A DNA stretch of 64,000 nt from Asterochloris sp. CNOR1 (lineage: Eukaryota; Chlorophyta; Trebouxiophyceae; Trebouxiales; Trebouxiaceae): NCBI GenBank assembly GCA_963969365.1, contig OZ017759.1:1240001-1304000 (forward strand), in the 5' to 3' direction. Shown here one piece after another: positions 1-64,000 of the stretch. The notes under the pieces are model-generated. The model had not been told where the DNA came from. It saw only the letters and a program-made list of their open reading frames with translations, and did not search any database. A program made the position numbers and the translations under genes. Every line of letters starts with the position of its first letter. The first letter of the stretch is position 1.

Positions 1-3000
1 GCTCATGTAGATTTGATGTCTCAGATGGGGACCGCCGGCCCGATGACTGCAGCTGGTCAGAATGGCAGTGTGGGTTGCAGAGGCAGAGCAGTGCATGCAG
101 CCGCTCACTTGGCAGTGGTCTGGCCAGCCTCCATCTTGGGAAGGGCGAGTGCCAGCAGCCCAGTGACAGCCTGAGCTGCAGGCTCAGACTCCCATCGCAG
201 GCTGGCGGTGACCAGCCAGGCCATCGCGTTGTCTGCAAACATGGACAGACTCAATTTGAGTGAGGAAGACGTCAAGTGTTCTGCAGTCACAACGGTACCC
301 ACTATGTGTCTTTCGGCATCAGGTCGGCAGTGGCCAGTCAGGCCATTGTGTTGTCTTCAGACATGACCAACCTGTTCGCACAGGCCGAGCAGACAGGCGA
401 TGGCCAGCTAGGCCCTTGCTTTGTCTGGAATCAACAGCACCTGCTACGAAGCCACCATGACAATGCGAGACCAAGCGGCCTGCTGTCTGCCTGCAGCGGC
501 CTGACCTCAAGGTCCCAGCTGATGATGATGATTGATGCAGGCATCAGGCAGACAGAACGCCTGCGCCCAGCAGGCTTATGAGCTGTGAACTTGCAGAAAC
601 AGCAGTGCATATCATCATGCAGAAGGCAGCTGAAGCGTTACAGTCGCATCAAGGGTTTGTGATGGTTGTCACCTGAGTCAGCGTCTGCCAGCCACTGTTC
701 ACAGTACTAGGGCTTCACGAGTTCACCCACCTGGGGCACCCTCCTGATCCAGCAGAAACCTGATCCAGGTCTGCACCCTGCCCTCTGCAACCTCCAGCAA
801 TCCTGCAGCGGCCTCAGTCAGCTGGGCTTGCAGCCTGTAGGTGCCGGGCTGCTCCGTCAGGGCAGCATCCAAGTGTCGGATGACCTGCACCAGCAGGCAA
901 GAAGCTGTGAACTGCCCCTGGCTGCTTCCGTCAGCAGCGGCTGAAGTCTTCAGGTGCCAGGCTGCTCCTGCAGCGCAGCTTTTGAGTGCCTGATGACTGA
1001 AGGTGATCGCAGCAGCTTTTGCATTGTGAGCCAATACAGGTGCATTGCAAGACACTGCAGATTGCATGCTTATGGGGGGCAGTGTCAGGAGGCTGCTTGG
1101 CCAAACATGCAGGAAAGAAGTGGCAGGCAAGAATGGGGCACTGCCCTCAAGCACTGATAGAGTGAGCCAAGATGCCGGTGCATGTGTGTCAAGAGGCGGC
1201 AAGGGGTGCTGGCCTACCAGGTCATGATGCCCTTTTAAGTGGTGCAGCCAATCTGGCGCGTCTATCATTTGGGCGGGATGTGAGCAATGATGACAACACA
1301 CCTGCAGGATTCTGATCAACAGCCCTGATCAACACATGAGGAGGTCTAACCTGCAGCTTCTGCTGGATGCGGAACATCGTCTTGGCATTGCGGTACCCGC
1401 TGTGGCGCCCACACAGGGCGTTCAGCAGCTTGCGGCAGGGCTTGCGTGCCTTGCTCAGAGCGTCACAGTGCAGCACCTTGAACAGAGCCTGCTCCCAGGC
1501 GACACGCTCAGTGTCTGCAGAAACAGGAGTTGCTCAGATGGGGCACAGTGCAGCACTTTAGCCACAGCCTCTAGCTTCTGGGTGGCTGCGCTCAGCCTAT
1601 ACATGCAGCAGCAACCCCGTGCTCAAGCACGATAGTGCAGCATTTCTCTGGCAATATGTGCTCAGAGTCCATGCAGCAGACTGAGAGACTCGAAGTGTGA
1701 CTTTTGGCATGTGAAAGCAGTGAAAGCTGTGATTCACTGGCACACAAAGCATAGTTGCATTAATCTTTTATGCATTGCTGCCTAAAGCACAACAGGAGAA
1801 GAGCATACAAGTATTACGTCAGGCCTATCTGCACTGCTGATCAAGCCAGATTTGCAATGTTTGAACACCCACCGCTGAGCAGCTGGCCGCCCAAGGAGTC
1901 AGCAATGCATGCTGCAACGTGCAGCGCCGCTGTGACGGCCACCAACGGCTGCCCTTGAGCACCGCCTGGACTGGCCAGCAGGTGATCCTTCTCCAACTTG
2001 ACCATCCTGCAAGCAAAGGTGAGGGCCTTGCTAGACTCTGACAATAGTTGCTTGAATCTGCCAGGACTGGCCAGCACTGAATCTCCTTCAACCTTCAGGT
2101 CTGACGAGAGAGGTGTCGCTTCCTGATCACCTGCAAAAGGCCTGCACCTTCCTGCAGTGTGAGCCAAGCTAGTCAGTCATTTGCTTGAGAACAGCGCGAG
2201 GCTAGCAGGCAGGCCATGGTAGCCTCCATGCAGCAAGCCGCTTGACCAGTCTCGGTGAGATCTGAGGCCACGCACAGCCTTGCTTCCAGCTCATGCACCG
2301 AGGAACAGGGGCCGCCAGTCTACTGAGCGTGACATGACAACACAATGCACAATGTTGACTGAAACCGGCACACCGGAAGCAGGGCCGTCTCAAGCATGGG
2401 TGCAGCCAGCAAGCCGAAGTGGTCAATGCTTGTGCCCGCTTTGCTTCCCACAAGCCATGCAAACCTCCACACACAGGTCCAGGCAAGCAGTCTGCTCCCC
2501 TTCTGACTTCCAGCAGGCCGCACCTGGCAAGGCCGACATCATGCACAGGTCCTGCCAGCAGAGATCCGCAGCCAGGCGCCTTGCCGGCAGCAGCCTGTGG
2601 CAAGTCAGTGTCCTCCGTCCCAGCACCAACAGGTGCCAAAACGTCCTCAAGCGTCTTCAGGACTGTGGTGAGAAGCAGCGGGAGCAGGCGCTTGGCTGCC
2701 TCCAGGAATGCGGCCTGCACCTTGCCTGCACGTGTAGCAATAATGCATGTTGAGTGAGCCTGTGTCACGCACTGTGGCCAGGCACCTACTGCTTGTAGGT
2801 TGCTCCCATGGATGCACTGCGGCATCGGGGGGCCATGTGGGTTGCAGTGGTGTCCAGCGTGGTGCTCCACAGAGGGATCTTGGGGGACATGGGGGCTCCC
2901 CTGAAGCAGCCAGGTGCTGCTGGCAAGTAAGATGCTGTATGACAAGGCCTGGAGACAACACCGCTACCAAACATGTTTGTCCCTCAAGATGAGGCTGTCA

Positions 3001-6000: not shown

Positions 6001-9000
6001 GCCAAAGTTTCCAAAGTTTGCGAGCAGCGTCCACGCCGCGCAGTTCAGTGCGCTGTTGGGCTGCCACTCAGGCGCTGTCTCCTGTGCGCACTGCAGCAGG
6101 ACCTGCCTGGCAGCAGCAGGCCCCAGCTCTGCCAAGTCTGCTGCGACCGGTGAGGCGCCCTCAAGCTCTGGAGCCGATGTACCTGCCAAGATAACCTGAG
6201 GTGACGCAATGCTGCAGGGGTGCCACCTGGTGACTGATACAGATGTAGCCTGGCAGGGCATCACTCACTGCTGCAGGGGCTGGTCTGGCGATGCATTGAC
6301 GCAAGGCAGGTCACTACCTGTGTGCACTGCAGCCACGCATACATCTGGAGACAGAACTGATCTGCACCATCAGCAGGATGCAGCACACGTCATTGCAGGG
6401 CGCAGCCAACCTTGCAGTGTATCCCACAGGCTCTGCGCAGTCAGCAGGGCCTGGCTCAGCAGGTACTCCATCCCTGTCCAGTCTGATGGCGTGGGGCTGA
6501 TCAGGGACGGCACGCTGGTCGCAGCAGCCCGCAGCATGGTCTCTGTGCTGATCTGGGCTGCGGCTGGCGGCCTGCTCTCGGCGGCCGCTGAGGCTGCCAC
6601 ATCGGCCCGTGGCTTGCCATACACTTCCAAAGAGTCCAGGTGAGGCTTAGCACTGCCAGAAGCAACAGGGCCAATCTGCACCACACAGAGACCGCATATG
6701 GCCAGGGCTGAGGTGGATACACTGGGCAGGCTGCTGTTCAAGCACAGTAAGGATTGGCGCTGCCAGCAGCCACCATTGCTAGGAAGGCACGGGCATCGTC
6801 CCTAAATTTGGCAGATAATGCAAACTGCGGTGCAAGGGCACATGATCGAGGCTGCCAGCTACCAATGAGCCATGTGCTGGAGCCTCGACGATGTGACTGA
6901 CAATGGCTGCAACCTACTCGCAGCGTGCTATGCCAGCCCATGAGGCCAGCACCATGAGATACGCAAATGCCAAGAGCCAAGTCAGTGCTTCAGGTGCGTT
7001 CCGGGCCTCAGAGATAGCTCAGACACATTGGCAGTGCGTGTGATGCTTGTGATGCTTGCCTCCAAGATGACTTCAGGGTGGGTGGCCAATGCCTCAGCAT
7101 CGGTCAGGGGAATGCTGTGCCACCGGCGCTGGCCTGCCTGCTTCAAGCGCACCGTCCTGCCCGCCACCTGCACCTCTTTAGGGACATGAGCAGCGCCAGA
7201 GCTGCCAGTGAACAACCTGAAGCCTGCAGCAGGGACAGCAGTCGTAATGTTTGAGGAACAGGCAGAATTACAGTCACAGGGGAGCCTCCTGGATCCTTCA
7301 GCAGGAGCATCGCTGGCATTGAATGGCATGCTCATAGTTCAGTCTTGGGGCTGAGGCCAACACATGGGGGGTCCCAGGTCACTGTGACTCATGGTTGCCA
7401 TCCTGGTGTGCACAGCCCTGCTTCGCATACCGTGTCTGGCTTGAGGAAGCACACAGATGCAAAAGCACAGCAGCAGGAGTGACCTCGTCCCACATGTGGA
7501 TACGTACAGCATCCTGTGCCACTCAGTGCCTCATGCTGCGAGAACCGTGCTGGCAGCCACAGAATGCAGCCTGGGAGCACACAGGCATGGTTGAGATCTG
7601 TGGAGCACTTGCAGGCTTCACCATTACAGGGAGCACTGCAGCAGACACCATGCTGGCAGCTTCTGCCTGCAGCCTGGGGATGAGCAGCACACAGACGCAC
7701 CGACAATGGCCATGGAAGCGTCTGCAGGCTTCACTGTCAACAGGAGCCCTGCAGCAGATGGGGCCTCCAAGTAGCTGCTGGGGCTGCTGAGGGCTCTCCT
7801 GGCACCCTCCCCGCCACCTGCACAGCAGCAAGCAGCTCACAGGCTGCCTCGGAAAAGGTGACATTCAGTTTGGCGCTACGTGCATGCCAGCAACATCACA
7901 GCCCAGCCTCACAGAAGGGATCTGTCACCCCCCACACCCCACACACAGCCTCGTTGCAGCCTTTGCGGCATGAAACTGTTCAATCGCTGAAGCAAGGCAG
8001 TAAGCAGCCCTCATTATGCTTCAGGGGTTGCACAGGCCACCACCCTGCAACAGCTGCAGCAGGACTTCGCTCAGTGGGTCATCAAGCATGCCCCATCTAG
8101 CCAAGGCATGGCCGCGTCTCCGCAGAAAGACTCACGTGTATGGTAAAAACCCCCACTTTAGCATGCAAGCATGGGGCCTGCTCCCTGACTGCTAAGGCAA
8201 ACCCACCTGCGTCTGGGGGGGGGGGGGAGGGTGGGGGTGGGGGTTGGAGTTGCAGCAGACTCGAGGCCAGCATGTGCATTGGAGGCTGTTGCACACAGCA
8301 GCAAAGCAACCTCCCACCACCTGACTGCAGGCACAACTCACCTGCATGGACGATATCTCCAGCCAGGCGCACTTCCGCGGTGATGCAGCGCACATTCTCG
8401 AAAAAGTCCACAGGGAATTTAGGGTCGTCTGTGCCCCCTGCAGGCACCCTCATCAAGTCAAAACCTGAGTGATGGCTGCTGCTGCCTCCACAGATTGATG
8501 ACAGTCAGCAGCATCCCTGTCTGCAGAGGTGACAATGTGAATTTTAGGCCTCCATGGCCTGAGTGTCTCATGTGTGTGGACAAGGCAGTGCCAAGCTTGT
8601 GGTAGAGGGTCGCATGGGGGAAGGCGCTCAGGCACCGCTGCATCAGGCAACACGAAGTGTGCTGGCAGCACAAGCAGCAGTGACACCAATGCTGCTGTGC
8701 AAGCAGCTGGTAGCTTCCAAGCTGGTTGCCATGGGATGGCATGACTGACCTGCAGCAGCCTCAGTGGCGGCCACACTGTCCCCCGTGCTGCCAGCTGCGC
8801 CTGCAACGCTGCCGCCCTCAGATGCTGCCAGCACGGCGTGGCTGAGCAGGCGGTCCCGGCGAAGCCGCGCTGCAGCTGCAGACATGGCAGAGGACAGGTC
8901 AAGTCAGGATGCAAGGCAGATGAGAGCCTGCGAATAGCGCCGGATGTACTTGATACAGCCAGCACGACTTGGGTGAGCGAGCATCGACACTGCAGCTGCC

Positions 9001-12000
9001 TGCATGACACAGGACAGCTCAGCGTGATCTGGAGGGACGGCGTCAGGCTGCCTGGAACCGCATGGTGCAAGCAAACCTGACAGCAAGGCACTGCAGGTGT
9101 GGGTGCAATCAGAGGGACCCCAGCACTGGTGCTGAAGGAGTGGCTGTGGGCTGGGACGTGCGCAGTGATGGCCATCGATATTTCGGTGCTGGCAGCTGGG
9201 CGCATTGAGGCTGTGCCTGCCAGTGGCTGGTGCCCAAGGGCTTCACAACACTTGCACGCAGTCCATGGGTTGCCACTCACCATAGACAACCTAGGGTGTT
9301 TCTGCACTGGCCCCAAGCAGAGCTAACCTGCCTGCGCCTGGCTGCAGATGCAGAGGAGATCACCCAGCATGGGTCGCGGCAGGGAGGCTATCCACCGGGG
9401 CAATGGCAAAAGAATGCACTGCTTGCCAGAGGCAATTGCCTGCAGCCCAAGGGTGCCACCCAGCATGGGCAACCCTGACAGATGCCCCACTGGCCCCGGA
9501 CAATCTGACTGGACTGCACTCAACTAGGTAACCCTGCAAGTCACCACATTGGCGCTGAGCAGAGGCAACTGCACAGCACCCTCTACACCCAAGAAATAAC
9601 CTGCAGCCCCGGGTGTGACACCTGGCATCGGCGAGCCTGGAAGCTCCCCGGGCTGGTCCTGGGCAAAAGCTACTGCATAGCGCCGGTCACGTCTCCTCAC
9701 TGTTGGGGTGCCTGCAGCACAAGAATGCACATCTGATTTTCTCCAGCATGCAAAAGCCAGACACAGCTCCACAACCAAAGGCGAAGTCTGAGCAAAGGTG
9801 CAATGAACTCAGCCGCTTGCAGGCAAAGCAATCACCACGCAGTAGATTTCCGGTTGCAAAGGTGACCTGCTCTGCAATGCAGCAGCTCAGCAGCATGATC
9901 CAGTGAAGCAGCGCTTCTGACAAACAGCAGCACGAAGCAATCTGCAGCACAGCAGCATGGCAGCAGCAGCAGCAGCAGCAGACAAAGCCAGTCAGCACCT
10001 GTGTCCTCGCGGGCTTGGCCACCTTCTGCTGCCCCTGCCTGAGTGCTGCCAGTGGCTGTCAATGCTGCAGCCTCAGCAGGAGCTGCAGCAGCAGCCACGC
10101 CCTCGTCGATGGGACCACACCCAGGCAGCGCCAGCACACTGACATGCCCGCTGCTGTCCAGAAGCACCACCAGAGCAGTTGTCATCAGCGGCAGCTGAAC
10201 GCCTGCAGCCCCCGACACATAGCTCCCTGATGCAACCTGAAGGAAGCAGCAGCACAGTCAGGTGGCATGCTGAGGTCTTGCTGGTCAATGATGGGGCCCC
10301 CACTTGCTATTCATGTGGGACTCTGTCTGAGTAGGTACCTTGAAGCAGCTGGGCAACGTTCTTGCAAGCGCATTGGGCACAAGAGCCTCAGCGGCCTGAA
10401 GCCTAGCTGGGCTGACAAAGCGGTGCCCTTTCCTCAGCTGACGGCCTGAGAGGACCACTGCACCCAGCAAGTGCTTGAGGTGCAGCTTCGCCTGACCTGA
10501 GCCTCCAAGCTCTGCGCAACCACTGTGCAGCCGCTGGTGGCCTGGGCACCGAGGTTGGCATTTGATGCGGCGCACCCTTTCTCTAGTACCAGAGCATGTG
10601 CTGAGCCGGCAGACGGCCCACTTTGAGGCCCCAGGCCCAGCAGCAGAGAGGGGCCACGCAAGGCACGCCTTGCTGGCGGCAGCACCTGCACCTGCACCAG
10701 CACAGCACATGTGGACGTCAGGTACACACAGGCAGCCGCAGGGAAGGCTGCGCGGGGCACCTCTTGCCGGCGGGCGCAGCTGTGGGTGCAACGGCGCACA
10801 TTAGTTATTGTCAAGCTTGCTCATACAGGCAGCAGCAAAGAAGGGCTGCACTGAGCACCCCAGGCAGCAGCAGCTGCTTCGGCATAGTAAGGTTCAATAT
10901 GCAAACAAGCAGCCAACAGCTGGCAGTCCCTTCCTCCACTACCAGCAGCTGAAGACGCACTGAAGTTACAAGAGAGGTCAAGAGCATCACAACAGTTGGG
11001 AGTTCAGTGAGCAAGGTTACTGTCACTGATCTAAAAATGGCTTACAAACTGCAATGCAGGGGCACACCTTGCAAACACAGCAGACTGCTTGAAGGCCCTG
11101 CAGATACTTAAGATGCTGATAGGTTGCCCAAAGCCACCTGTGACTGTGATGTGATGAAGTGCAATGTGTACCGACGGCTTCTGGGCCTAGCTCATGGCGC
11201 CCACGTGATGCTGATCCAGAGCCACCTAACATGCGCAATGCAAGCAGGCCGATGTCCAGCATACACACAATCAGGCTGTAGGCCTGGCCCCTCTTCCGCA
11301 TGCACATGCCGCTGGTATGGCTGGCGGCCCCAACATATTCCGCAATAAGGATGCACATGCAGCATGTAATGTACAACGCGGCCCACCTCCTGCAGACAGC
11401 ATCAGCGCTAACAGTCCCTGTGCAGGTGCATGCCGCTGTGATGAGGCCGCCTTCCAAGTGCAGTGTGGCTTGTGCAGACGCCGCACACTGCGGTCCCACC
11501 TGGATGCATGTGCTGCTGCTGCAGAACAGCCTTTCACATGTAGTGCATGCCCACCTCCTGAAAACGGCAAATTGCCTGCAGGCCTCCAGGCCTGCGCCTG
11601 TTGCTGGTCTGGGAGTCTGCTTCGCTCTCCTCCCCAGTCTCTGCTTCCTCCATGCTCTCTGCACTGTCACTGTCTGCAGATACCTCCTCAGCTTCGGTAT
11701 TTTCAGGTGCCCCTGCAGATATGCTGCACAGGTGAGTGATGCAGCCTTGACAAAATGGAAGCTGCAGTGCTGCCGCCAGGCATGCAACGCCTGATGTGCA
11801 AGTGTCTGTGCACGCATTGGACACAGAGGCTTTGCTTGGAGACCGTGGTCTCTTTCTTGGCATAGTCAACACAAGCTGTCAGGCCGACTTGTTGCGTGCT
11901 TTGGTGCACAGCTTGCTCAGAGCCACCATTGCAAAGCTGCTGATTCTCCTGCTTGTGCAACTGGCTGTGGTTCCAGCTCAGGTCATGCAGGTTTGTGTGC

Positions 12001-24000: not shown

Positions 24001-27000
24001 CATGTAGTCTTGCATGGCACATGTGCTGCTGGACCATGCAAGCACATGCAGCCAGCACCACCTGCTTGAGTTCCTACACCCATGCAGGAGCGCTTTGGCA
24101 TGCCACGTGTGCAGCACCATACACGGCCGGAGCACACAAGGCTGGAGATTTGCCAGCCAGGAGGCGGCATGATCCATTGCGTGCACGCGCAGCAGGGACT
24201 GACCTGGTTGGTGCAAGGCGCGCCCGTTGTTGCAGGATGGACTGACCTGGGTGGTCTCAGGGCTTGCATGCTGCTGCAGTCAGGACTGACCTGGTCGGGT
24301 GCAGGGCTTGTTGCATGAGCTCCCCAGGCTGCAGAGGTCCAGACAGAGATGAGTACGACCCATTCCGCAGCCCAAGGATGACCTCCACATGATCCAGCCA
24401 CAGCTGCAGTGCAAAGGGAGGCCCTGCACAAGCCAGGAGCACCTCAGCATGTCATGTCAGCAGGTCTGCCAGCCCAGGTTGTGCTAGCTGCTGAGCCAAG
24501 CGCCTGTCCCGGTGCAGGCTGCCAGGCTGAGTATTCCTGCGAACACCTACTGCCGCGTCCGGCATCACAACTGCAGAAGAGCAAGCGCGCTCCACTGGGG
24601 CATTAATGCATATGAAGCTGCTGCAGCAAGGGGACTGCTCAAGTGTGGTGCCACGCACCTGAAGAGGGCTGTTTCCGGCTGGCCTGCATGAGACTTTCAT
24701 CCAACGCCTGCAGCACCAGCGTGCCACCAGGCTGGCCCAGGCCACACCCAGGATTGCAGGGCAGTGGCCCTAGCCCCCTGGCGGCTGCCTGCCATGGGCT
24801 CATGACTGCCCGGCCCAGCGCCTGCCGTGTGCCAGGCGGCAGTGGCCCCCCTTGCACCAATGCACGCAGGTCTGACAGCGCCTGCAGCCCCATGCCTGCA
24901 CAGCATGCACACAGGACGGTGCTGCCCCTGACAACGCCTGCATTTGCGTCTGCCAAGTGCAAGTCAGCAGTGGCTCTTGTTGCACCACTCCGTGCAGGTC
25001 AGACGGTGCCGGCAACCTTGTGCCTGCAGGGAACTGCGCACAGGACAGTGGCTCCCCCTGTATCACCTGACCCCGCCCGCATCCTCACCCTTGCAGGGCA
25101 TGCATTGCACACAGGACAACAGCCCTCCCTGCGCCAGATTGGATCTCAGCAGAGCAGACAGCAAGAGGCTGAAGTGATGGGGAACCCTGCGGCAGAGCAG
25201 GGTGCCCAGCATCAATAGCCTGCCCAGCATCACTAGCCTTGCAACCTGCCGTCTGGAATGCACCCTCAGTCCTACTTCCATGCATTGCCTGCAGCTGTGC
25301 ACGTGTCCACACAAAGAGGCTCACTAGAAGGCCCCTCACACGCATCGAGGTCCCTCACAAGCATAGGGGCTCAGAATCCCTGACAAGCATAGAGGCTCAC
25401 CAGAAGGCACCTCGGACGTCCAGGACAGCCATGGACCCGTCCTCAGCTCCTCCCAGGCAGGGCCATCTGCAGTGCAACCCTCCTGCAGCTGGGTGCCTGC
25501 CTGCGCCAGCAGCCGCACCAGTATGTGGGCCTGGAGGGGCGGCAGGTGAGTTGCCTGCCCCTGCAGTTGGGCATGATCCTGCCTCAGCAGGGCAGCCAGC
25601 TTTGCCAGCACCTTGCCCAGGGCTGCACTCCAGTGCAACTGTTGCAGCTGCGCTGCGGAGTTGTGGGAGCGCTCGGGCAAAGCGGCGCTGCTGGCCCCCG
25701 ATCCTGCTGCTGCCTGCGCTGCCTCGTCAAACAGCTCCCCAAACATGCTGCCCTCCGTGCTGGCCAGTGGACCTTCAATCTGTGGCAGACACACACACTG
25801 TGAAATTAATGAACATTGGACAGGCCCTAAGACTGCTGCCCTCTAGGCTGGAAGTGGTTCCCTGACTCATGTGAGGCAAGTGAGAATTCAGAGATCCACA
25901 TGCATCAGATGCCAGTCGCCACAGATGCCGCAGCTAGATCACGAGCATCAACAGCAGCTCCAGCTACTCTCCTGGCAGCAGAGTGGCCACCTCCACGCTG
26001 CACCACGAGACCAGCCCATCAGCCCAGGCAGCTGCAGTTTCAAGGCACCCAACCCCACCTGAGATGCCGCAGAAGCAGCTGGGGCCTCAGCTGGTGGCTC
26101 TGCCCTGGCCCCTGCTGCTGCCTCCACTGGCTCACTGCCTGCCTCCAGGCGAGCTACTGCTGCCAGGCCGATGCCCAGCAGCCAGCTCATGTAGGGGGTT
26201 GAGGCTGGGCCATGCCCGTCAGCAGGCGCTGATGGCCACGGCAGCTCTGACAAGCCTGGCAGGCTAAGAGCTGCCACCAGCAGCAGAGGGTCCGTCCCAA
26301 GGGCGGCATCGATGTGGGCTGTGGCGCTGCCTGCAGCTGTGTCTGCAGCTGCAGCTGCGCCGCCATTGGGGGTCCTCTGCTGGGAGAGCAAGCCCCCTAG
26401 CAGGGTGAGCTTGAGCGGGCTGCCCTGTAAAAGAAGCCAACACATCCAATGAGCCCTGGACACTGGCTTGTCCCGTGCATGACGTCCCTGTTGTGTAACC
26501 GCATTTTGATACAGCACGCTCTGCTTGGTGTCATATAGCCCATGCTTGGCTGGAGCATGATTGGGGGCAGCTGAGCTGCGGGGCAGAGTCAGATGCAGAG
26601 GAAGCTCTCACCTGTGGAAGGCCCTCCTGCTGCAGCCTGCCGGCCAGCAGGGTGGCTGCTGAGATGAGGGCAGTGGCATCTCTGGCCGCTGTGACATACT
26701 GATCTCCACTGCAGGCTGTCAGCGCCCTGCCAGCAAGCACAACAAGTCACATCACTCCAGGCTGTGCCCATGCTGCCAAGCAAAGGCATGCCGGCCTGCT
26801 GCAGGCTGTGAGCGCCTCGCCAGCAGGACCAAGCAATGTCGATTCAGGGCAAGGATCCGGCTAGCTCCGCTCATTGAGGGCTGGCCGTGCGACAACATGG
26901 AGCCTCAGCACCTTGTGGTGCCTTGTGAGACAGCACTGGAGGATGTAGGCTCAAGCAGACAAGAGTAGCAGCTGCACACAGTTAGCTCCCTCACTGGGCG

Positions 27001-35100: not shown

Positions 35101-36293
35101 ACGCCCTGAGGTGCCTCCCATCGTTTGCAGCAACCTGGTTGCATGGTGTGGCGTGCCTACATCTGCTCTCTGTCTTGTTGGGCGGCTCTGTGTGGCCTGA
35201 TTGCACTTGCTGTGCCTGCCTCACAGCCTAGGCTGCTGGTGGCAACTCATTGAATGATTCTACCAACCACCAACATGATGCTGTAAGTGGTGCAGGACTT
35301 GACTGGTGGCAATGTGCTCTTGGTGGAGGGAGACACAGAGCTGAGCCCCGACAGATTGCGAGCCAAGGTGCATCTGCTGCCACACTACAGCTGCTCACGC
35401 CGCTTATTTATGGGACGCAATACAGTGATCAACCCTGCAGTGATTCTGCCAGCACGTGTGCCACAATGTGCTTGTCGATGCGGTCGTCTTGCCTGCAATC
35501 ATGGGGAGCTTGCCATTGGGAATCTGCCTCGTATGCAGGTGGCAGACTTCGGCCTCAGTCGGAGCCTGCAGGTGGCCAGCAGGCTGGAGACTGAGACTTA
35601 TGGCACCGTCACACACATGTGAGCACTGCTGGTGTGCTTGTTGGCCTTGTGCTGGCAATAATGTTGCTGGTCAGGAACATTCTGCACAGCCGGTATCGCA
35701 GCTGCAGAGACTCCCGACAGTTCAGGCAGTGCCGAAGAACTCCCTCAGGGTATCTGCAGCGCCACATTACCAATGCCTGTTGTGTGCAGGCCCCCGGAGC
35801 TGCTTGTGGACGGCATAATGAGCAAGGCAGGGGATGTCTTTGCGTTTGGTGTGCTGCTCTGGTGGGTTGATGCACCATTGTCTAGGGCATCGCTGCTTAA
35901 GCATGCTGGCGACCATCTTGTGCAGCTCTGGTGCAGCTCTACTACTGCTCTGTCTTGGCTGCTGTAGGGAGATGTACACTGGACAACATCCTTGGGATGA
36001 GTACCGCCAGGCTCAGATAATTTACAGGGTCAGCAGGCCTGCCCAGCAGCCCTGCACATGCGCTTCTCTGTCAACACATTCATCCAGAAGAGCTGAGGCT
36101 GCACTATGTCATGCAGATAGCTACTTTGAAGGAGACGCTACAGTGCACAGACGAGACACCTGCTGGGTACAAGGAGCTTGTATCATGGTGCTTTGAGTAT
36201 GACCGTCATGACAGACCCACCTTTGAGCAGGTTGCCACCGCCCTGACAGGGCTGCTGAAGGATGGCCCCCACTCCTCATTGAAAAGGGGATAA
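29150..36293 (+). CDS. GAF-PAS-domain protein kinase, Raf/MAPKKK-like
   Basis: A Ser/Thr (or dual-specificity) kinase with N-terminal sensory modules. Exons with agreeing frame: about 29150-29893 (Ala/Gln/Pro-rich), 29961-30095 (GAF start, DEDARIATLHALDVLQKP), 30517-30622, 31034-31194 (ERPEVLVV-like GAF core), 31721-31763, then an exon ending DADSCNLLV near 31937, 32171-32252 (FAEMVMRELE), 32427-32568 (PAS start, SIMLCDARTEQLLVVFANHA), 32730-32901, 33243-33359, about 33513-33600, about 33690-33906 (GQGSFGRVYRA loop and VAVK lysine), 34089-34177, 34305-34332, 34486-34539, 34895-35032, 35296-35367, 35539-35618 (DFG), 35790-35861, 35968-36028 and 36117-36293. The catalytic loop reads HGDLTGGN, not HRD, and the APE motif is PPE. 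The family is common in green algae; the ligand or partner is not visible. Start codon unresolved. Confidence 0.9.
30070..30240. repeat. Echo of the GAF exon end
   Basis: The end of exon 29961-30095 (ctgcag then AAGCCTGCCTCAGGTGCA) is echoed near 30160-30180 (ACTGCCTCAGGTGCA) and again at about 30196-30225 (GTGCAGAAGCCTGCTTTCGGG). The copies lie in the following intron and keep the donor-like GGTGCA. Confidence 0.55.
31191..31515. repeat. Three degenerate copies after the GAF core exon
   Basis: GGCTGGGCAGACTGGCTGGCT near 31203, GGGCAGGCTGGCTGGCTG near 31319 and GGCTGGGCAGGCTGGCTGGC near 31436 begin similar blocks. The first and third continue with a shared TGGGCTGT-CACCT-TGGCAGCTGTGCAT run. 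They fill most of the intron after exon 31034-31194. Confidence 0.65.
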
Positions 36294-37750
36294 GCCCTCA
36301 CTGCAATCCAAAATGAGCTGCTGCCCCTGGACTCTTGGGGCTTCCTGTCTTGAGTGTGTTTGATGATTGTTTGTCCTTCATTCACCACATCTTCTCATAT
36401 TTTTGGCCACAAGGCTGGTACTGCATGAACCCCATTGTATGAGGAGTCGGCCTTGGGCCATCACATGTCACAACATGTGCAGTGATTGATGTAGCTTGAG
36501 ACCCAGACTGTCTTCTGTCCCCATTCTTTGTTTGCAGGGCACAGGTGTCTATTGCACCTCCAACCGGCCTAATCATTTCATGCATCGCGCATAAATCGTT
36601 GACACTGTCCTGATGTCATGCTAATTCTTGTCTAAGGCTTTTCTTCAAGTAAACATCCACCCATGGGCGTGTTCCTCAAACACCTGCAGAAGTGGCCATC
36701 CCGCAGAGGTTGCCAATGTGTGCAGCAGCCAGCAGCAGCACAGGCAAGACATCTTACATTCAGAAGCAGGGCAAGGTGTCGCATTGTCATGCACATTCAT
36801 GCAGTCTCGACAAAGAGCCATCAGAATTCCTTCCCTTGCGGCCAACAAAAGGCCAGATCCATGCCAGAGCTGTAGGCTTTGTCCCACCACCTTGCCAGGA
36901 CCTTGACCTGATGAGAAACAGGTACAGCCCCCTGCACGCAGCCTGACATGCCAAATAGGGCGCAGCCAACACAGAACAACACAAGCCTTCCTTTGTCCTG
37001 GGGAGTACAGGCGCTGCCCGGTGGTCATCAGATGCGTGAGATGAGACTCTGCCCAGGGCACCGTCAGTAAACGAAGAGCTTGGTCTGCATCTCTTGTGCG
37101 GGGTTTGAAAGCTGTTCCCTCTGCATGGCTGTGATGAAGTGCGCATCTCTGCAGCAAGAGGGCTGCAGGGGGCTGGGACACCACACTTCCGCTGTCACTT
37201 GGGAGTTTGCGTGGCACAAGTAAGATCCTTGAAGACAGTGTAGTCTCCCAAGTTGTATCAAGATCATGAAAAGCGTGTTGTCAGTGAAGTGTAATGCACA
37301 CTTGCCTGCTTCAGTGCCGCTGGTTGCAAGCAATAATAGCAGTGCAGTTCAAGGGGTCTCAGCCCATCAACTGGCACACTCAGTACGTGCTTGCTGCACG
37401 CTCTTGCATCAGCTTGTCAAGAAATGAGATCCTGCTCGACATTTTCCCTTTTTGCGGCAGTCGTAGGTCCAACATTGCAAAATGAGGTGTGCGGCATTCC
37501 ATGGTGAGTCTGTGCGCAAGCTTTCTGACTCTGGGCTTTGTTTGCTGTCCTTGACAGTGGTGCTGGATCTGGCAAGCCTGGATGCTTCTGAATTGTCTGT
37601 GCAGGCAGCAGGGGCATCCTGCTTCACACATCAAGGAGCTCGCCTGTCATCACTGCCAGGCTCAGCCTGCATGCTGGTCGCAGCTCAGGGCGTGCAAATT
37701 TTGGGGGCGTGCTGTCCTCCAGCAGAAGACTGGTGAGCAGGCCATCTCTG
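36294..37750. other. Gene-free stretch between the kinase and glutathione reductase genes
   Basis: This 1.46-kb interval should hold the kinase 3' UTR and the glutathione reductase promoter and 5' UTR. No exon chain with family conservation was found on either strand. A minus-strand open frame at 36645-37217 has no recognisable motif, and its opposite strand is also open in parts. The sequence is somewhat AT-richer than the exons. Confidence 0.6.
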
Positions 37751-44781
<7,031 letters not shown>

Positions 44782-49435: not shown

Positions 49436-49790
49436 TCTGTCCTGCTGTCAGAAGTGAGTATGGAGCAATAATTCCAACCCAGGCATTGCCGGCAGAAGCA
49501 AGTGCTGAGTTTGCATGCTGATAAGACAGAGGCATGTGATGGTGGTCGGGGCTGTCCATCAGTCTACATGACAGTGGTCACCTGCCGGCAAAGCATTGCA
49601 GTGGAGCGAGAGGCAAGGCTTCCGACACCGGGCTGCCAGCCCTGACGACACACCATGGCATGATAGCCTTCGGATGCAGTTGATACTGTGCTGAAGAAGC
49701 ATGCAGGGAGGTGGCCGTGTGTCTGCTGTGGGTGTGTGCAGATGCAGAGCAGCTGTGGGAATCTAGATACAAGATATCTGGCATCAAAGC
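49436..49790. promoter_or_regulatory. Divergent 5' region of the L11 methyltransferase and SAM methyltransferase genes
   Basis: The two genes point away from each other across this interval, which should hold the unresolved first exon of the L11 methyltransferase (minus) and both promoters. Minus-strand ATG codons near 49799 and 49803 open frames that could encode a targeting peptide, but no splice join could be proved. No recognisable TATA box. Confidence 0.35.
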
Positions 49791-51806: not shown

Positions 51807-51927
51807 CATTGCAAATGCTTGCCTTTGATCTTGAAGTGCACACCAATTTGAATGACATCTTCCCAGCCTTTTGGATGTGCTTCTGACATTCTGCTGATCA
51901 ATAGTCATGCATTGAAACCTCAAGCAG

Positions 51928-54900
51928 TCACATATGCTGAGGCATGGCATGCAGTGTCTGGAATGCCTTGGTCTTTCTGAAGTCCTCCAGGTCTGCGTCC
52001 TGAAGGAGCTCCTCCCACTGCACACCACCGGCGGCCAGCAGCTGCTGCAGCAGGTCACCAGCCTGCTGCGCATCCCCCTTGAGTGCCAGCACGCAGGCCA
52101 GGTTGTAGCGGATGCCGCAGCGCTCCTCAAAGCAGCCAAGTTTGTCAGGCCGCTCCAGGGCCTGCCTGAAGCTATTTGCACTCTGCTGCCAGTGTGCCTC
52201 TGCCTTTGCACCCTGCCCTGCATGCAGACGACAGCCAATGTTCAGTAAGGTGCCGGATGATTCACTCGCCAGCAGAATGTGAAAAGTCGAGCACCAACCT
52301 GTTAGGCCCTCCATATGCAACTGGGGGCTGCAAGACTGGGATTGGCTGCTGCACCATTTGCAGGCAAAAGCTGCCAGCAGCAGCTAAAGCACTTACCAGC
52401 AGTGGTCTTCAGGACCTGTCCTGGACATTGGCTCTGGCCAGCAGCAACCTCACTACATGCGACACTATGAGCTGCAATACGCACGCAAGCAGCTCCGCTG
52501 GCCATACATGCGGGGTGGCCCCCTCCTGACATATGCCCATCAGCTCATGTGGGCATCTGCAGGCACGGCCAGCTTGCCCAGCTGAGTGTACTCCTCTGCC
52601 ACACCGCACTTTACAAGTGCCTGTCATTGCATGCAGGCATATGAGACATGCACCCAGCCCACCTGCTGTGGTTGCCAGCTGCACCAGCAGGGCGTGCACC
52701 TCAGTCACCACCACCAAGGGCACCAGGATGGGTGCAAGTGTTCGGCAGTACAGAAAGGTCAAGCACGCTTGCAACCCACCTGCGGTGGCTGCCATCTTCC
52801 CCAGCAGGGCATGCACCTCAGCCACACCAACCAGGGCATCAGGGCAGGCACGGTCGATGCGCAGCGCAGCACCATAGCCCTGCTCCAGAGCAGCCTGCAG
52901 CTGTGCTGCGGCCCCAGCAGCGTCAGCACGATCCTGCTGCAGCCTGTGCTCCGCCTGCAGGCTGCACACCTCCCCCAGGGCGCACATGGGAGCTGGGTCA
53001 CCCCGTGCAAAGCTGATGGCGTGAAGCAGGCGACTCCTGGCCTCGTCAAGGTGGGCTGCTGCTTCACCCGGATCCTGCAGAGGCAGCGAGTTGCTGGCTG
53101 CAACTCACGGACTGCAAAAGTACCATGGCCTCTGTTGAGCATGAGATTGCTGCAGGGCCCCGTTAGGAGCCAGATAATCACTAGACAGGACAGAAGGCGG
53201 GTGCCTGGCCTCTTGGCATACAATCCACAAGGCACACAGGGAGGCTGCAGCCTCACTTGCACTCCATACGTGCAGGGAGCCAGGCCAGGACAAGGCAAAG
53301 CATGGCTCACACTGTGGCAGCTTGCCAAGTGCAACTTCATGCAGAACTCGCACATTATAGCCTGCTGGGTGAAGCCCAATGATGTTAGTTTTGCAGCGGG
53401 CAGGGAGGCAGCAGTTGTGCCTGGGAGCCTGCCCAAGCACAGCTTTAAGCCCCATCTGCACGGGGGAGTCTGCAGAGCATGGCTGCATCCTGTAACAGCT
53501 CAGCACAGAAGAAGTGGCCTGCACTTGGGAGCCTGCCAAGTCCAGCCTCACCTGCACATGGGAGTCTGCAGAGCATAGCCACATTGTGCACCTGTGTAGC
53601 AGGTAGGAACGGCCTGCATATGGGAGCCTGTCAAGTGCAGCCTCACCTGCACATGCGAGCCGGCCGAGTGCAGCCCAGAGCCCCAATTGTGCAGCAGGCC
53701 TGGAAGGTCATCCCCATTCTCGCTGCTGCTGAGGGAGCAGGCCCTGTTGTAGGCCTGCATGGCCTTCCGGTACAGGGTGGCTGCCTGCTCATGCTGTCCC
53801 AGGTCTGAGTGTGCTTCTGCAGCCGCCACCATTGCATCGGCCAGGTTGTTCAGCGTCTGCAGCACCAGGGCAGGCTCATCGGTTAGGGAGGGGGGCCTCC
53901 GCATGGGTGCTGCCTCCACTTGCTGCAGAGCGCTTACTCAGGCGTCTGCAGCACCAGGGTAGCCATGTCGGCCAGCAAAGCATTGCTTGGCGCTGTACAT
54001 CAGAGTTGGGGCTGAACACGGATGCAAACTTCTGTGGCTGTGCAGTAGACGCCCTGGAGGTGGGGTGCAGTGCTGACCAGCTGCACACATGAGGATGCTG
54101 GGCAAACCGTGCGCTGCATTGCACACGCTGCTGTGGGTTGAACACTGCCCCTGGGTCAGCCCAATAACCTGCCCCTGGGTCAGCCCAATAACCTGCCCCA
54201 GGCAACAGCAGCAGGTCCCTGCACTGAGACAGGTATGCTGGCAGCTTACTCGGCAGTTTCCTGGATAGCTTCGACCTCACCACTGCATCCTCCTCCTGCC
54301 TAAGCGCTTCTGAGTAGGATGCCACTGCAGACGCTAACAGCTTGGCTGCCTCAGCTGGTGCAGCAAGCTCTGCCCAGGACGCCAAAGTGTTGCCCCTGTC
54401 GACAGCTGCGTCTGCACGCATCTCCCCGGTCCCAGTTTTGACCTGCACAGATGCATGGAATATCTGCAAGCCAAGCAGGCTAGGGTGCTGGCCCCCTTGA
54501 AGAGCTGCATCTGCATGCCTCACCGGTCACCAGTCTCACCTGCACGGGCACAGAGACCCCTCATAAATGCGATCCAAGACGGCAAGGGTGCTGCCCCTGC
54601 CAAGAGATGTGTCTGCACCAGTCTCCCTGGGCCCTGTATGTACCTGCAGAGGGCATAAACCCCTCAAAATCCAGGTTGAGCAGCAGTCAGCAGCTGGATC
54701 TGTACACTACCCCCGGTGCGCAATCTGTCAAGCAAAGGCAGAGGCGCGATGTGCACTGGCTGTGGGATCACAATTGTGCGAGCCTGCCTGGCAATCTGCC
54801 TGCCCGTGTCACCAGGCACCAATGGCCAGCACATGATTCTGGCACTGTAGAGTAGCAACATGTCGGCAAGGCCTGCACACCTGCTCATATGCCTGCACTC

Positions 54901-55912: not shown

Positions 55913-56030
55913 CTTGCAAATGCTGCTCAACAATCGAGACTGATCTGAGCTGATGGCATGCGTCAGGTGGCTGACCTAAAGTGCTTGCTTGTTCCCATTC
56001 TTGGAAATGGTGGCCACCCATCTCTCTACC
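55913..56030. promoter_or_regulatory. Shared head-to-head promoter region, TPR gene and FKBP2
   Basis: Only 118 bases separate the probable ATG of the TPR gene (55912, minus) from the ATG of the FKBP2 gene (56031, plus). Any promoters must overlap this interval or the first exons. No TATA box or obvious operator is visible. Confidence 0.45.
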
Positions 56031-57048: not shown

Positions 57049-57104
57049 GCCTTAAATAGCTCAGCTGGCAGTTCCATCAATCACTGATCCGTATGTGAAT
57101 GGGC

Positions 57105-59417: not shown

Positions 59418-59585
59418 GAGCTGATCAGTCTTGCTTGGCTACCTTTCTTTCTAGCTGCTCTGTGTTGCGCGCTCCTAAGCCCCGCTCTTGCAAACAAGCA
59501 ATCGCATCCACACCTTCTGGTGCTGTTGGTAGCACAAACTGCCCATAGCAGTTTGATAGTCCCACCTCAAGTCATCCTGGGTGGC
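59418..59585. promoter_or_regulatory. Shared head-to-head promoter region, PIG-V and the CH-domain gene
   Basis: The PIG-V start (59417, minus) and the proposed start of the calponin-homology gene (59586, plus) are 168 bases apart and divergent. No TATA box is evident. If the second start is wrong the interval would be longer. Confidence 0.4.
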
Positions 59586-62500
59586 ATGGATACCCTTGAG
59601 GACCATGATCTGGTGGTCACATCGTCTCCCAGACACGGTATGAGTGGCAACGAGTCCAGTCAAACACCCACAGCAGGGCAGCTCCAGGACGCGTCCTCAG
59701 CAAGCCAGCCAATGGCTGATAAGGTGCACAGGGCAGTCCTTCTAGATGCAGCTCGGCACTCAGGCTGCGCACGCTTTCCTGCAGATCCACATGCCCTGCT
59801 AACCCCACATTCCTCGAGCCTGCCATGCAACCTGGGCCAACATGAGCTGCCTTCTGACCGACCCAGGCTGTGACCTGTGCTCCCTCTCTACAGAAGGAGA
59901 ACCTGCCCCCAGGCAATGGCCTGGCTGTGCCGACAGCCTTCAAGCTTGCTGGCTACCCCCACTCAGTGGGGACACCACGCAGCCAGGTGCACTCTGCCCA
60001 GGCAAAGCAAGTGAGCTCACAACTGGCTACTACGTAGCCAATCATCCCCTTGTCCAATGATGAATGATCCAGCATAGCATCTTTCAGGGTGTCCTGCACT
60101 TATCACTGTGTGCATGCTGAACTGCATGGTCTTCAGGCAACACATCAGCTGCACTGAGCGACCCTTGGTAGTTGACTCGTATGTCAGATGCCTGGGCCTG
60201 CGTGGATGTGTGCCTGCGTGGACGTGTAAGCTGCAACGCTGCATAGCAGCAGGTTACATCTAGGTTCAAGGCCTGACATGCACAGCCCCTCTCATGCAGG
60301 TGCAGGCTGCAGCCTGGTGACGTGCAGCAGCAGACTGGGACCAGGGGCTGACATATGCACCCCTTGCTGTACGCAAACACAGGCTGCAGCCTGATGACCT
60401 GCAGAAGCAGGGTGTCTCCAGGGCATTGACATGCGCAGCCCCTCTTGTGCAGGTGCAGGCTGCAGCCAGGCGCCGCGCAGCAGCTGAGTGGGTTGAGGGG
60501 CTGACAGGCATTGCCCTGCCCACCAGCTCTGATCACGCATTCAGGGGGGCACTCCGGGACGGCGTGCTTCTGTGCCGCATCCTGGACCTGCTGCGACCTG
60601 GCATGCTGGCCAAGGTGGGTCCCTGTGTTGACATCTCCCAATGCAACACATGGAAGGGGCTGGCAGTGTCACCATCAGCCGCAATTTGAAGCCTTGACGT
60701 ACTTCAACTGTCACAGGAGGAGGCTGCAGCAGGTGCCTGCCATTGCAGTCTGGGAGTTCTCAACATCTGCCTGCTGCAGGTGGCAAGGGCTGAGGGCTGG
60801 AGCAGCAGCTGGCAAGGGGCTGCTGGCCTACTTTAGCAATCTCAGGATCTTGCTGCTGCAGGTGGCAAAGGAGGAAGCTTCTGCAGCAGTTGCCGACAGC
60901 GGCTGTGGGGAGGATTTCAGTGGGAACCAGACAGCAGTGCCAGCAGAAGAGGTTGATGGGAGCACTGCTGATGCTGGTCAGAGCCCAGAGGGGCTTGGTC
61001 TGGGCAGCCCTGCAGGCGGCATGCATGGCAGCAGGGCAGTGGATTCTGTGAGCAGGCCGGTGGAGTCAGCGGCCCACTTCATCTCAGCCATTCAGCTGCT
61101 CAGCCTCCCAGGCTCAGCCATCTTTTCTCTGGAAGACATAGAATGCACTGGCTGGGAGGAGAGGCCCAAGGTGACGCTGCCTGGCTAAGGGTGACAATCT
61201 CAGCCACAGCACTCCACTGGCTGCGGCACAAGCCACTGCATTTCCTGGCTGGGAAGGGCCACCAGGCTGACGCTGCCTGCAACATCCCATAGTGCCTTGC
61301 CACTTCCAAGGTTCACAAACTGGGCAGAGCGGCCAAAGGTCAAGAGTCCCGCCACAGCTTGGACTGCCTAGAAGGGTGACGCCACCTGCCACAGGTTGCA
61401 TCGCATTCCACTGGCTGGAGATTGCGGCCCATGTTGGTGTCACCTGTCACTTGTGCACTGTCCTGCCAGGGGTAGTCTTACCTGCCGCAACCTGCCAGGG
61501 TGCTGCCCCTTGCCCACAGCAATTCCACCACAGCTTGCAGTGCCAGACCAGGGGCTTCATCTGCAGGTCTTCATCTATAGAAGTAGCAGCCTCTGAGGTT
61601 GTCCTTGGGCCGGGCTGCAGGCAAGGACTTGGCCTTTGTTGACTACATGTGTAATCTGTCTGCAGGTGGTGGAGTGCCTGCTGACTCTCAAGCGGTATCA
61701 TGAGTCAGAGCAGCAGGGAGCTGCACCCATGGCAACTCCATACAGGTAGGCCTGGCGGCAGGTGGGACGTGGCGTGCTGCAAAAAACTACGCAATGTCGT
61801 GTTGGCGCAGCAGGGAATCCTGCCAATGCCATGCGTGTGCCTGCAGCATCTTGCGCCGCTTGAATACATGATGTGTGAGTTGCATACTCGGCTTGTGCAA
61901 GCATGGGGACAGCCTCCTTGGGGTGGTGCTCAATGCTTTGCTTGCAAACAGCCTGCTGCTTGCCCGCAGAGGTTGTTGCAATATTTCTCTGCAAGAAGAG
62001 TGTGGCAGTGTTGACTACAGTGTGCAACAGGCTTACAGGCACCATGACCTGAGCACAACGGGGTGTGGAAGCAAGAGAGGCATGATCTGATGCTTTTGTG
62101 CATGATGCAGTTTCCAGCAGCCTGCTAATGGGTTGCCAACGACTGGTTGGGTAGCTTGGAGTGCTGGCCTATGCCTTGAGCATAAGAGTTGGAGGCCTGG
62201 TGCCAGACTCCAGCACTGCAAACATGTCACGGTTCATACTGGCTGCAGGCCTTTCTCGTCCCCAGCAAAGTCGCCAGCCGAGTATAGGTTGTCTGCTGGT
62301 AGACACTATAGCCCATTGGCACTTGGGCTGTCCGGGGTACCATGCGGCACGCCTGGGCATGCTGCAACACCGGACTTTGACCAGGTTGGATGTGGCAAGC
62401 ACCTGCGCGGCAGCATCAGTGTAGAGGCTGCAGGCATGGGCAGACGTTCACAGGAGGCATCTGTTCATGAGCTGTTGGGGTCCACAGGCAGTGTTCTGCA

Positions 62501-64000
62501 CTGCATTTGGCTGCATTCTCCACCTACATGTGAAATGTCACCCTCTGCAGCCTGATGAGTACCTTGGCTACATTTGCAATCTGCCACTCAACAGCCAGGA
62601 CAACCTGAGAGCAGTAACACTGCAGTCCAGCCTCCACCTGCCACACATGGGTGATACATTGGCACCAAGCAGCCTCCCTGCAGCCCAGGGCACCCCAGCT
62701 GTACCTTCCAGGCGGCAGCAGCAGTGAATTCGCCATTGTTTCTTCCGCAGAAAGGCGCAGCAGGCCGCCGCAGGAATGCGGGGTTGCCAGGTACTCCCTG
62801 CAGCACACTTTGACCAGCAGCAGTTCAAATGGTGGCGGGTTGACTAATACAGGTGCCCTGCTGTGCAGGTCAACTCAGTGCTACACTGTGCAGGTCTCTC
62901 AGCGTAATGGTCATGTTAGCAGGAACAAGGTTGTCGTGGGTGTTTTGCCATGCAGGTCACTCAGCAGTATATCTCAGGTGGCAATAGCAGCCTGAAGTCA
63001 GCTGCGGGGAAGGGTGTGGCGGCCGCTGTGGGCGTGACGCGGCTCATGCAGCAGTGTACACAAATGCTGCGGGACAGGATGTGGAGCGAAGGTGGGCGAA
63101 AAGCATCTTGCTTGTTATGGAGCCAATGCAGCAGGCATGTAGATGCTGCAAGCAGGCTGCAAACCTGGTGAACAGGCATTTGATGAGCAGTAGGGCATGT
63201 GGATGTCGTCAACAGGGTGTAAAGCTGGGGCAACAGGCCAGCTGTCATTGTTCCTGTGCAAACTTCTGCAAGCACTGCTCATGCTAGCAAAGTGGCCCTT
63301 TGCTGTTCATCCTGCTGCACACCTCACCCTTCAATGGGAACAATGCTGCCTGTATGCATGCCCTGGTCTGCTTGGCAGATTGCTGTTGGTGCTGCTCATG
63401 AAAGGTCAGCATTAGCACTGGCCAGCAGCACAATGACGGGGAGGTTGTGAGGGCCTGTGCAGTGCCCACTCTGGGCAAGCCAGTGGTGCTGCTGCAGGCA
63501 CCCAAAGCAGTTGCCAGCAGCTCTGCCAGGCCAGCGGTGGTATGTGTTGGTGGTTTTGTCGCATTGTACTCAGGCATGCTGCAGTGAATGCTGACGCAGG
63601 CGGGCCCAACAGCCGACTGGCGACCCCGCCCGTGCAGCACCGCTTTGCAGCTTCTGGAGTGGCACCCTCGCCAGATAATGCACTGGAGGCAATGGGCCCG
63701 GTGCTGGAGTCCGTCCTGGGCAGCTTGACCCAGGTGGGTCCGTCTTCCTTAGTTGGAGGAGTTTTTGCTTTGTTGCAGAGCTTGAGCCCCAGTGCTGGAG
63801 TTTGCCTGGGTCAGCTGGCTCACGTATGTCAAAACCCTTGACCACCACTCAGCTCAAAGGTGTCTGCTCCTGGCAAAGCTGGGCCCGGTGGCCCCCCCCC
63901 CTCCTGGCCAGTCTGACTCAGGCGGGACAGTCTCTGGCATCACCTGGCTGCTGGAGCCTGTGCAAAATGGCAGAGCATGGGTGCAGCGCTCTCTCTTGGG
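59586..64000 (+). CDS. Calponin-homology-domain protein, probable kinesin-14 (KCH type), 5' part
   Basis: Probable start MDTLEDHDLVVTSSP at 59586. Exons: from 59586 to about 59721, 59894-60010 (KENLPPGNGLAVPTAFK), 60453-60614 (first half of a CH domain: AAEWVEGLTGIALPTS, then FRGALRDGVLLCRILDLLRP), 60862-61170 (acidic insert, then AAHFISAIQLLSLPGSAIF), 61666-61745 (VVECLLTLKRYHE, the end of the CH domain), 62956-63091 and 63600-63733 (EAMGPVLESVLGSLTQ). The CH domain followed by an LESVL segment before a coiled coil is the order in plant KCH kinesins, which link microtubules with actin; this is inference because the motor domain lies beyond base 64000. At least one exon between 61745 and 62956 is missing, since the phases do not match. 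A fimbrin or other CH protein cannot be excluded. Confidence 0.72.
60275..60475. repeat. Three copies of the CH-domain exon acceptor
   Basis: Copies at about 60275-60317, 60349-60398 and 60428-60470 share GACATGC-CAGCCCCTC, TGCAGGTGCAGGCTGCAGCC or close forms. The last is the true acceptor of exon 60453-60614. Spacing is about 75-80 bases. Confidence 0.85.
60762..60890. repeat. Echo of the exon 60862 acceptor
   Basis: CTGCTGCAGGTGGCAAGGGC at about 60771-60790 repeats TGCTGCAGGTGGCAAAGGAG at 60853-60872, the true acceptor and exon start. Confidence 0.7.
61140..61500. repeat. Echoes of the exon 60862-61170 end
   Basis: The exon end plus donor (CACTGGCTGGGAGGAGAGGC, then GTGACGCTGCCTGGC) is echoed near 61211-61280 (CCTGGCTGGGAAGGGCCACC, then CTGACGCTGCCTGC), near 61310-61390 (GAAGGGTGACGCCACCTGCC) and near 61405-61450 (CACTGGCTGGAGATTGCGGC, then a GTGTCACCTGTC end). 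Confidence 0.7.
62864..62980. repeat. Three acceptor-like copies before exon 62956
   Basis: TGTGCAGGTCAACTCAG (about 62864), TGTGCAGGTCTCTCAG (about 62887) and CATGCAGGTCACTCAG (about 62950) share an acceptor and the first codons of exon 62956-63091 (VTQQYISGG). The last copy is the one in frame. Confidence 0.7.

Follow-up and report, generated by a model that had tools for sequence, protein, structure and literature searches.

Decayed exon-edge copies in the introns of Asterochloris sp. CNOR1: were existing introns lengthened by short tandem duplications?

Why would introns carry degraded copies of the edges of the exons beside them? The question is raised by a stretch of 64,000 nucleotides (here called the window) from the green alga Asterochloris sp. 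CNOR1, part of contig 14 in a genome of 56.4 Mb and 21 contigs. Contig 21 (215 kb) of this genome encodes a plastid-type Rubisco large subunit (rbcL) whose closest matches among solved structures, such as 1gk8 from Chlamydomonas, belong to the green type, as would suit a green alga or a near relative of one. An earlier note, made by reading the sequence, had described introns with one to three diverged tandem copies of either the acceptor and the start of the next exon, or the end of the previous exon and its donor, in glutathione reductase, the L11 and SAM methyltransferases, a TPR gene, a CH-domain gene, a kinase, and BIG (the earlier reader's label for a 42-exon gene at 109-28419). Here, we will refer to such copies as echoes and distinguish between acceptor-type and donor-type echoes. 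Their layout suggests that introns already present became longer as short duplications fell again and again on their splice sites, and that they were not newly created in this way.

Exon edges repeated within their own introns

For comparison with the window, 19 loci of 10 kb each were taken at round coordinates from 16 other contigs of the same genome, and a further 21 segments of 3 kb served for repeat density only, with no introns taken from them. Genes were modeled with a two-strand hidden Markov model self-trained on the sequence, which predicted 684 exons; the 341 with a length of at least 40 bases and a coding score of at least 8 were kept. The 281 introns between kept exons were filtered by length for each test: 233 (180-1200 bases) entered the comparison of own with other and with reversed introns, 258 (100-1500 bases) the gapped echo test and the tests of decay, and 275 (at least 50 bases) and 252 (130-1500 bases) the ungapped and gapped tests, respectively, of intron gain by Rogers' model.

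The echo test took 25 bases of intron and at most 110 bases of exon at each junction and aligned them to the rest of the same intron, and the control aligned the same junction to equal lengths of other introns, which share the same CTGCAG-rich composition. At a gapped score of at least 110, 34 of the 258 acceptor and 36 of the 258 donor junctions find a copy, against 0.86 and 0.63 expected (together 70 of 516 versus about 1.5); at cut-offs of at least 100 and at least 90, the counts are 48 and 50 (3.95 and 3.10 expected) and 64 and 65 (13.4 and 11.5 expected). Similarity thus lies well above that of sequence of equal composition, the yardstick that the earlier note had set for its own claim. 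In the set of 233 introns, the 99% level of the other-intron control is exceeded at 38 acceptor junctions and 41 donor junctions, versus 1 and 0 when the own intron is reversed as the target.

Repetition at short range can also be seen in simple counts. Exact 10-mers in the window recur at 12 times background at lags of 80-90 and 22 times at lags of 90-100, falling to 5.7 times at 170-200 and to at most 1.6 times beyond 300, and ungapped segments scoring at least 16 number 85 at lags of 15-399 versus 2 at lags of 10015-10399. The 19 loci elsewhere hold 241 near versus 12 far pairs (0 in locally shuffled sequence), with a range of 0-34 near pairs per 10-kb locus, and a comparison of lags 60-399 with 1060-1399 gives 252 near and 13 far pairs in the 253 kb of the 19 loci and 21 segments together. 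The distant lags and the shuffled, other-intron and reversed-intron controls are all without a comparable signal, and the echoes first noticed by eye are real.

A gapped score of at least 105 defines a set of 85 echoes (39 acceptor-type and 46 donor-type), which lie in 74 of the 258 introns, or 29%. The splice junction is spanned by 73 of the 85 copies, with at least 8 bases each of exon and intron, and the far exon edge is crossed by only 5. The layout is nearly head to tail: the gap between copies is at most 15 bases in 35% and at most 30 bases in 52%, the aligned length is a median 0.81 of the lag, and some pairs directly abut, in keeping with the tandem arrangement claimed earlier. Among junctions having any copy, 54 have one, 27 have two and 4 have three, again as first described. 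The spacing of 80-110 bases given in the earlier note catches the mode of the lags (28 of 85 at 80-119, 39 of 85 at 80-139) but is not the rule, since the median is 131 and the 5th to 95th percentile runs from 74 to 408. Introns with echoes have a median length of 498 bases (n=74) versus 324 for echo-free introns (n=184).

Decay, reading frame, and the probable growth of introns

The copies are dead. A frameshift or in-frame stop is present in 74 of the 85, and mismatches fall on codon positions 1, 2 and 3 at rates of 0.277, 0.249 and 0.313, so that coding constraint is lost. Splice dinucleotides are often kept, as had been noted (48 of 73 copies), though only slightly above the 53% found for other dinucleotides, and 21 of 37 acceptor copies, like 11 of 39 donor copies, still have a splice-grade site, scoring no lower than the 10th percentile of real ones. 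In a relative-rate test on junctions with two or more copies, the identities of exon and copy are 0.739 and 0.706 and that of copy and copy is 0.605, and in 31 of 37 triples it is the two copies that resemble each other least; 0.547 would be expected if the exon were unchanged and the copies independent. The exon is the slow template from which the copies decay independently.

Echo identities are centered on 0.65-0.80 (2, 20, 29, 21, 8, 4, 1 and 0 echoes in successive bins of 0.05 from 0.60 to 1.00; n=85), with none at 0.95 or above. Simulated detection power, for acceptor edges and 100-base units, is 1.0 as long as substitution does not exceed 15% and falls to 0.69 at 35%, and a scan without gene models finds 3 of 91 tandem pairs to be at least 90% identical. 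Ageing at a constant rate was rejected, since a steady process should leave many more young pairs than are observed. Because young pairs are few despite full simulated power for young copies, the distribution points to an old wave of duplication that has largely ended; young copies may in part be misread as exons. Two young tandem duplications do stand in one of the comparison loci (L008:8642-8850 and L008:9041-9205; 95% and 99% identical, lags of 130 and 96), about 190 bases apart, and they may mark a recent hot spot with breakpoints that are still readable.

If duplication is blind to genes, one might expect only in-frame survivors inside exons and any frame elsewhere, and the lags were tested against that expectation. 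The frame filter is present: counts of lag modulo 3 (0, 1, 2) are 39:0:2 within exons, 20:21:22 within introns and 29:28:24 for exon-intron echoes, or 9:0:2, 12:13:13 and 18:22:20 when each exon or intron is counted once. Compared with random relocation, 225 pairs comprise 88 exon-intron (61 expected), 55 intron-intron (69), 32 exon-exon (28.8), 9 other noncoding (22.4) and 5 mixed pairs (12.3), together with 36 that touch low-confidence exons and are classed as uncertain (31.6). Placement is therefore not far from exon-blind, and the exon-intron surplus, which is to be expected because just one of the two copies drifts freely, fits slower decay where one copy is exonic. The share of tiles above the 99% control level is 12.8% at junctions, 10.5% in introns, 9.2% in exons and 2.9% outside kept gene spans.

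A single process probably accounts for the echoes: short tandem duplications, blind to exons. Where one straddles a junction, splicing would remove the extra copy, which makes the intron longer and decays there. Such duplications would arise regardless of gene structure; one within an exon would persist almost solely when the reading frame is kept, and one within an intron would be neutral. A duplication that straddles a junction would leave the gene with two donors or two acceptors, and use of the outer site (the most upstream donor or the most downstream acceptor) would keep the protein unchanged and turn the inner copy, including its exon part, into intron. The inner copy would then decay while selection holds the exon template, leaving an echo, and repeated rounds would produce arrays of two to four edges and longer introns.

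Could the echoes instead record the birth of introns? By the model of Rogers, which the earlier note had raised, new introns would come from exonic AGGT segments duplicated in tandem and would have grown later, and the echoes are indeed tandem and carry splice sites. The signature of that route is an intron whose donor edge and acceptor edge match as copies in register (offset of at most 8 bases). With register ignored, likeness of the two edges is in surplus among the 252 introns: 24 at a score of at least 80 (10.2 expected), 8 at 90 (2.7), 5 at 100 (0.8) and 2 at 105 (0.3). The surplus is, however, mostly out of register. In register, there are 6 at the weakest cut-off of at least 80 (2.9 expected), a small surplus, and 1 at 105 or more (0.2 expected), this sole match being located in L015, which has the highest GC content among the 19 loci; at 90 or more, 1 of 252 introns is found versus 0.92 expected, with simulated power of 0.99-1.0 at 20-35% substitution. 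Without gaps, 3 of 275 introns exceed the 99% control level, which is chance (power 0.79-1.0 at 35-20% substitution). Set beside the 74 of 258 introns with echoes, in-register copying at chance level does not uphold intron gain, and most units are not the purely exonic segments that the model calls for, since 73 of 85 include both exon and intron. Because they straddle junctions, they read as lengthening existing introns, not founding them. Introns can have been gained by this route only rarely, if at all, and as the source of the echoes it is highly improbable; growth of existing introns is the better reading.

The copies could also be functional, as alternative or mutually exclusive partial exons, which would suit the splice-grade sites and dinucleotides that many of them keep; the frameshifts and stops, the near-equal divergence of codon positions, the random lag modulo 3 and the rarity of copies reaching the far exon edge argue otherwise, and functional duplicate exons, rejected by the frame and codon-position tests, are very unlikely. 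Junctions might be preferred targets, with splice sites, the CTGCAG motif of acceptors or their close vicinity as starting points of duplication, and the excess of exon-intron pairs over relocation, the highest tile rate at junctions and the skew of a stringent gapped scan (below) would all agree with this; yet tile rates differ little between junctions, introns and exons, and pairs with one member in an exon diverge more slowly and stay detectable longer, so that we find such a preference rather unlikely. An artefact of composition would draw on CTGCAG being the commonest 6-mer (280 in the window) and on the increase of pair density with GC (rho 0.53, 40 segments), but three kinds of control (other-intron, distant-lag and reversed-intron) show no signal, and the idea was rejected as having almost no chance of being right. 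Also rejected were an introner family, for the two introns that were searched, and minisatellite arrays of many closely similar copies, given 1-3 copies per junction and a median identity of 0.73-0.74.

There are several points that weigh against exon-blind duplication and growth. Half of the copies are separated by at least 28 bases, so strict head-to-tail order is only partly seen, and tandem duplication does not account for a slight excess of exon edges that match their own intron in inverted orientation (10 of 516 versus 4.3 expected). Out-of-register likeness of donor and acceptor edges (18 versus 8.4 expected at 80 or more, 7 versus 2.5 at 90 or more) is taken as ordinary echoes that span to both intron ends. 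Longer introns hold more chance and real duplications, which makes the association with length weak evidence of growth, and the relative-rate test is biased toward exon-like copies because copies are detected by their similarity to the exon. In the stringent gapped scan, 52 exon-intron versus 17 intron-intron pairs among 91 exceed what an exon-blind process predicts; slower decay may be the cause or, less probably, a true preference for junctions. The gene models are self-trained; checks by homology covered glutathione reductase along most of its length and five other genes by their domains, with Pfam matches for PrmA (L11 methyltransferase), CH and kinase and, below the Pfam cut-off, for TPR and SAM methyltransferase. 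Finally, the use of the outer site and the neutrality of lengthening are inferred.

Located copies and their distribution

The clearest case is the glutathione reductase intron 38882-39938, which has three donor-edge copies, all on the + strand. The template (38801-38921), supported by the gene model and by an alignment of the joined exons to structures in the PDB, comprises the end of exon 38722-38881, the donor and the start of the intron. A first decayed copy lies at 38931-39051 (score 196, 66% identity), a second at 39099-39205 (score 194, 75% identity) and a third, adjoining the second, at 39206-39295 (score 137, 68% identity), and the last two retain the GT. Among 300 control pieces drawn from other introns (500-1000 bases) the highest score is 136, which places the third copy just 1 point above. 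The joined exons align in one stretch to solved glutathione reductases (residues 22-494 of 499, E 5.7e-107), and the echoes in these introns are therefore not part of the protein.

Elsewhere in glutathione reductase, also on the + strand, the acceptor and start of exon 40685-40888 (template 40663-40767, from the gene model) is directly adjoined by a decayed acceptor-type copy at 40560-40662 (lag 103, gap 0), and another acceptor-type copy at 38575-38696 adjoins edge 38697-38813 (lag 122, gap 0, score 111). A donor-type copy of edge 40828-40914 is found at 40970-41055 (lag 142, gap 55). On the same strand, edge 41757-41808 of exon 41781-42020 has an acceptor-type copy at 41479-41530 (score 119) and, by eye, a further copy near 41589-41615. 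The self-trained consensus (slash at the splice site) is CAG/GTGAGC for donors and a very sharp TGCAG/G for acceptors. This 3' splice site is nearly invariant (T 95%, G 95% and C 97% at -5 to -3) and has a scant pyrimidine tract, as before 38722, 40685 and 41781, though self-training may exaggerate its sharpness. It should also be kept in mind that the model fuses adjacent genes in places, 29150-44778 being predicted as a single gene.

Two further copies on the + strand are a donor-type copy at 31401-31502 of edge 31166-31260 (score 214), in the 29-36 kb region with kinase exons, and an acceptor-type copy at 60758-60826 of edge 60840-60909 in the CH-domain gene (lag 82, gap 13). On the - strand, the TPR gene has donor-type copies at 52647-52755 of edge 52764-52871 (lag 116, gap 8) and at 53527-53621, adjoining edge 53622-53717 (lag 96, gap 0; Tandem Repeats Finder reports a 95-base period), and an acceptor-type copy at 54574-54743 of edge 54374-54553 (lag 190, gap 20). 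BIG, likewise on the - strand, has acceptor-type copies at 24924-25050 of edge 24798-24921 (lag 129, gap 2) and at 917-1019 of edge 802-908 (lag 111, gap 8), and a donor-type copy at 7565-7665 of edge 7668-7780 (lag 115, gap 2). Tandem Repeats Finder gives 11 rows in the 64 kb. Within a TPR gene intron there is also a perfect 24-base tandem repeat of 2.3 copies (54145-54199).

By gene, echoes scoring at least 105 occur in 15 of 40 introns of BIG, 6 of 8 of glutathione reductase, 4 of 6 of the TPR gene, 1 of 2 of the CH-domain gene and 2 of 8 in the region at 29-36 kb where the kinase lies. The list of genes in the earlier note is borne out for these, but at this threshold is not confirmed for the L11 methyltransferase (0 of 3, or 1 of 3 at 90 or more) or the SAM methyltransferase (0 of 1 at both cut-offs). 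The window is rich in echoes, with 28 of 68 introns versus 46 of 190 elsewhere (p=0.012), and the rate is uneven over the 20 loci (chi-square 35.7, 19 df, p=0.011). Five loci (L003, L004, L005, L007 and L011) have an echo in 0 of 42 introns. Over L003-L042, there are 2.6 tandem clusters per 10 kb on the three largest contigs versus 7.5 on contigs 10-18, and clusters rise with GC. Pair density follows chromosome size strongly over the 19 loci sampled first (rho -0.69, p 0.001) and also over all 40 segments (rho -0.41, p 0.009), but the 21 fresh segments by themselves give no significant trend (rho -0.26, p 0.26), and this gradient is a lead only.

Known systems and what the echoes mean

Among the closest known systems is the potato RdRp gene, which acquired an additional intron, in the lineage of potato and its wild relative, when a short tandem duplication ran over an intron-exon boundary (PMC4974935). 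There, as in acceptor-type echoes, the duplicated stretch reaches from an intron into the following exon and copies the acceptor and exon start (PMC4974935), and a tandem copy across an existing boundary is what 73 of the 85 echoes are, the abutting pair 53527-53621/53622-53717 being one example. Unlike in the account of potato RdRp, the copies here are read as lengthening, are strongly decayed, are of both donor and acceptor types and reach 74 of 258 introns (PMC4974935). That introns can be gained through tandem duplication is accepted (PMC3443670), and the echoes share with Rogers' model the supply of duplicated splice-site sequence (PMC3443670, PMC4974935); they differ from it in that in-register copying of donor and acceptor is at chance.

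Like tandem exon duplication and mutually exclusive exons, echoes are exon-like sequence outside the exon in the same gene (PMC9013439), although here they are partial, dead edges, not whole exons with both sites and an open frame. Exonic bases with a homologue of at least 80% identity are put at about 2% in human, 0.08% in fly and 0.06% in worm (PMC9013439); the figure here is 0.9% (603 of 66314), below the human value, with methods that differ and are only roughly comparable, and at any detected identity it is 7.5% (4998). Introner elements likewise alter intron content genome-wide, but they share one sequence across genes (PMC9860276). Two introns searched across this genome, with very common words skipped, gave self matches only and no copies elsewhere; one of them is the BIG stretch 24920-25400, and for these two the statement in the earlier note that the echoes are not introners holds.

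As for how the duplications arise, fill-in repair of staggered breaks is one candidate that we infer. Small tandem duplications via fill-in of complementary protruding ends are described in mammalian cells with engineered breaks, with 43-base overhangs in one set-up (PMC8355091). The likeness is that those products are tandem, and the difference is that most copies here are too decayed for their breakpoints to be read. In the open-licence literature, we found no report of genome-wide exon-edge echoes, of about 3 in 10 introns with decayed copies of their own edges, or of a reading as intron growth; boundary-crossing duplication itself is known from a single published case, and what was not found in that literature is its extent and the growth reading.

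The echoes allow intron growth to be told apart from intron gain, and they leave a record of growth that is readable because, whenever a duplication straddles a junction, an exon preserves one of the two copies. The echoes have also inherited decoy splice sites, from which the places of mis-splicing can be predicted. It is conceivable, although we regard it as unlikely, that an old and mostly stopped wave of junction-straddling duplication is the main cause of long introns in Asterochloris sp. CNOR1, the introns being largely decayed exon-edge copies of which most have sunk below detection, and the same cause might perhaps apply to other green algae with unusually long introns. In Chlamydomonas and its relatives, introns are conspicuously long, the usual peak at 60-110 bases is missing and the driver of length is likely ancient (PMC8226300); exon-edge echoes may bear on the unexplained length of these introns as well.

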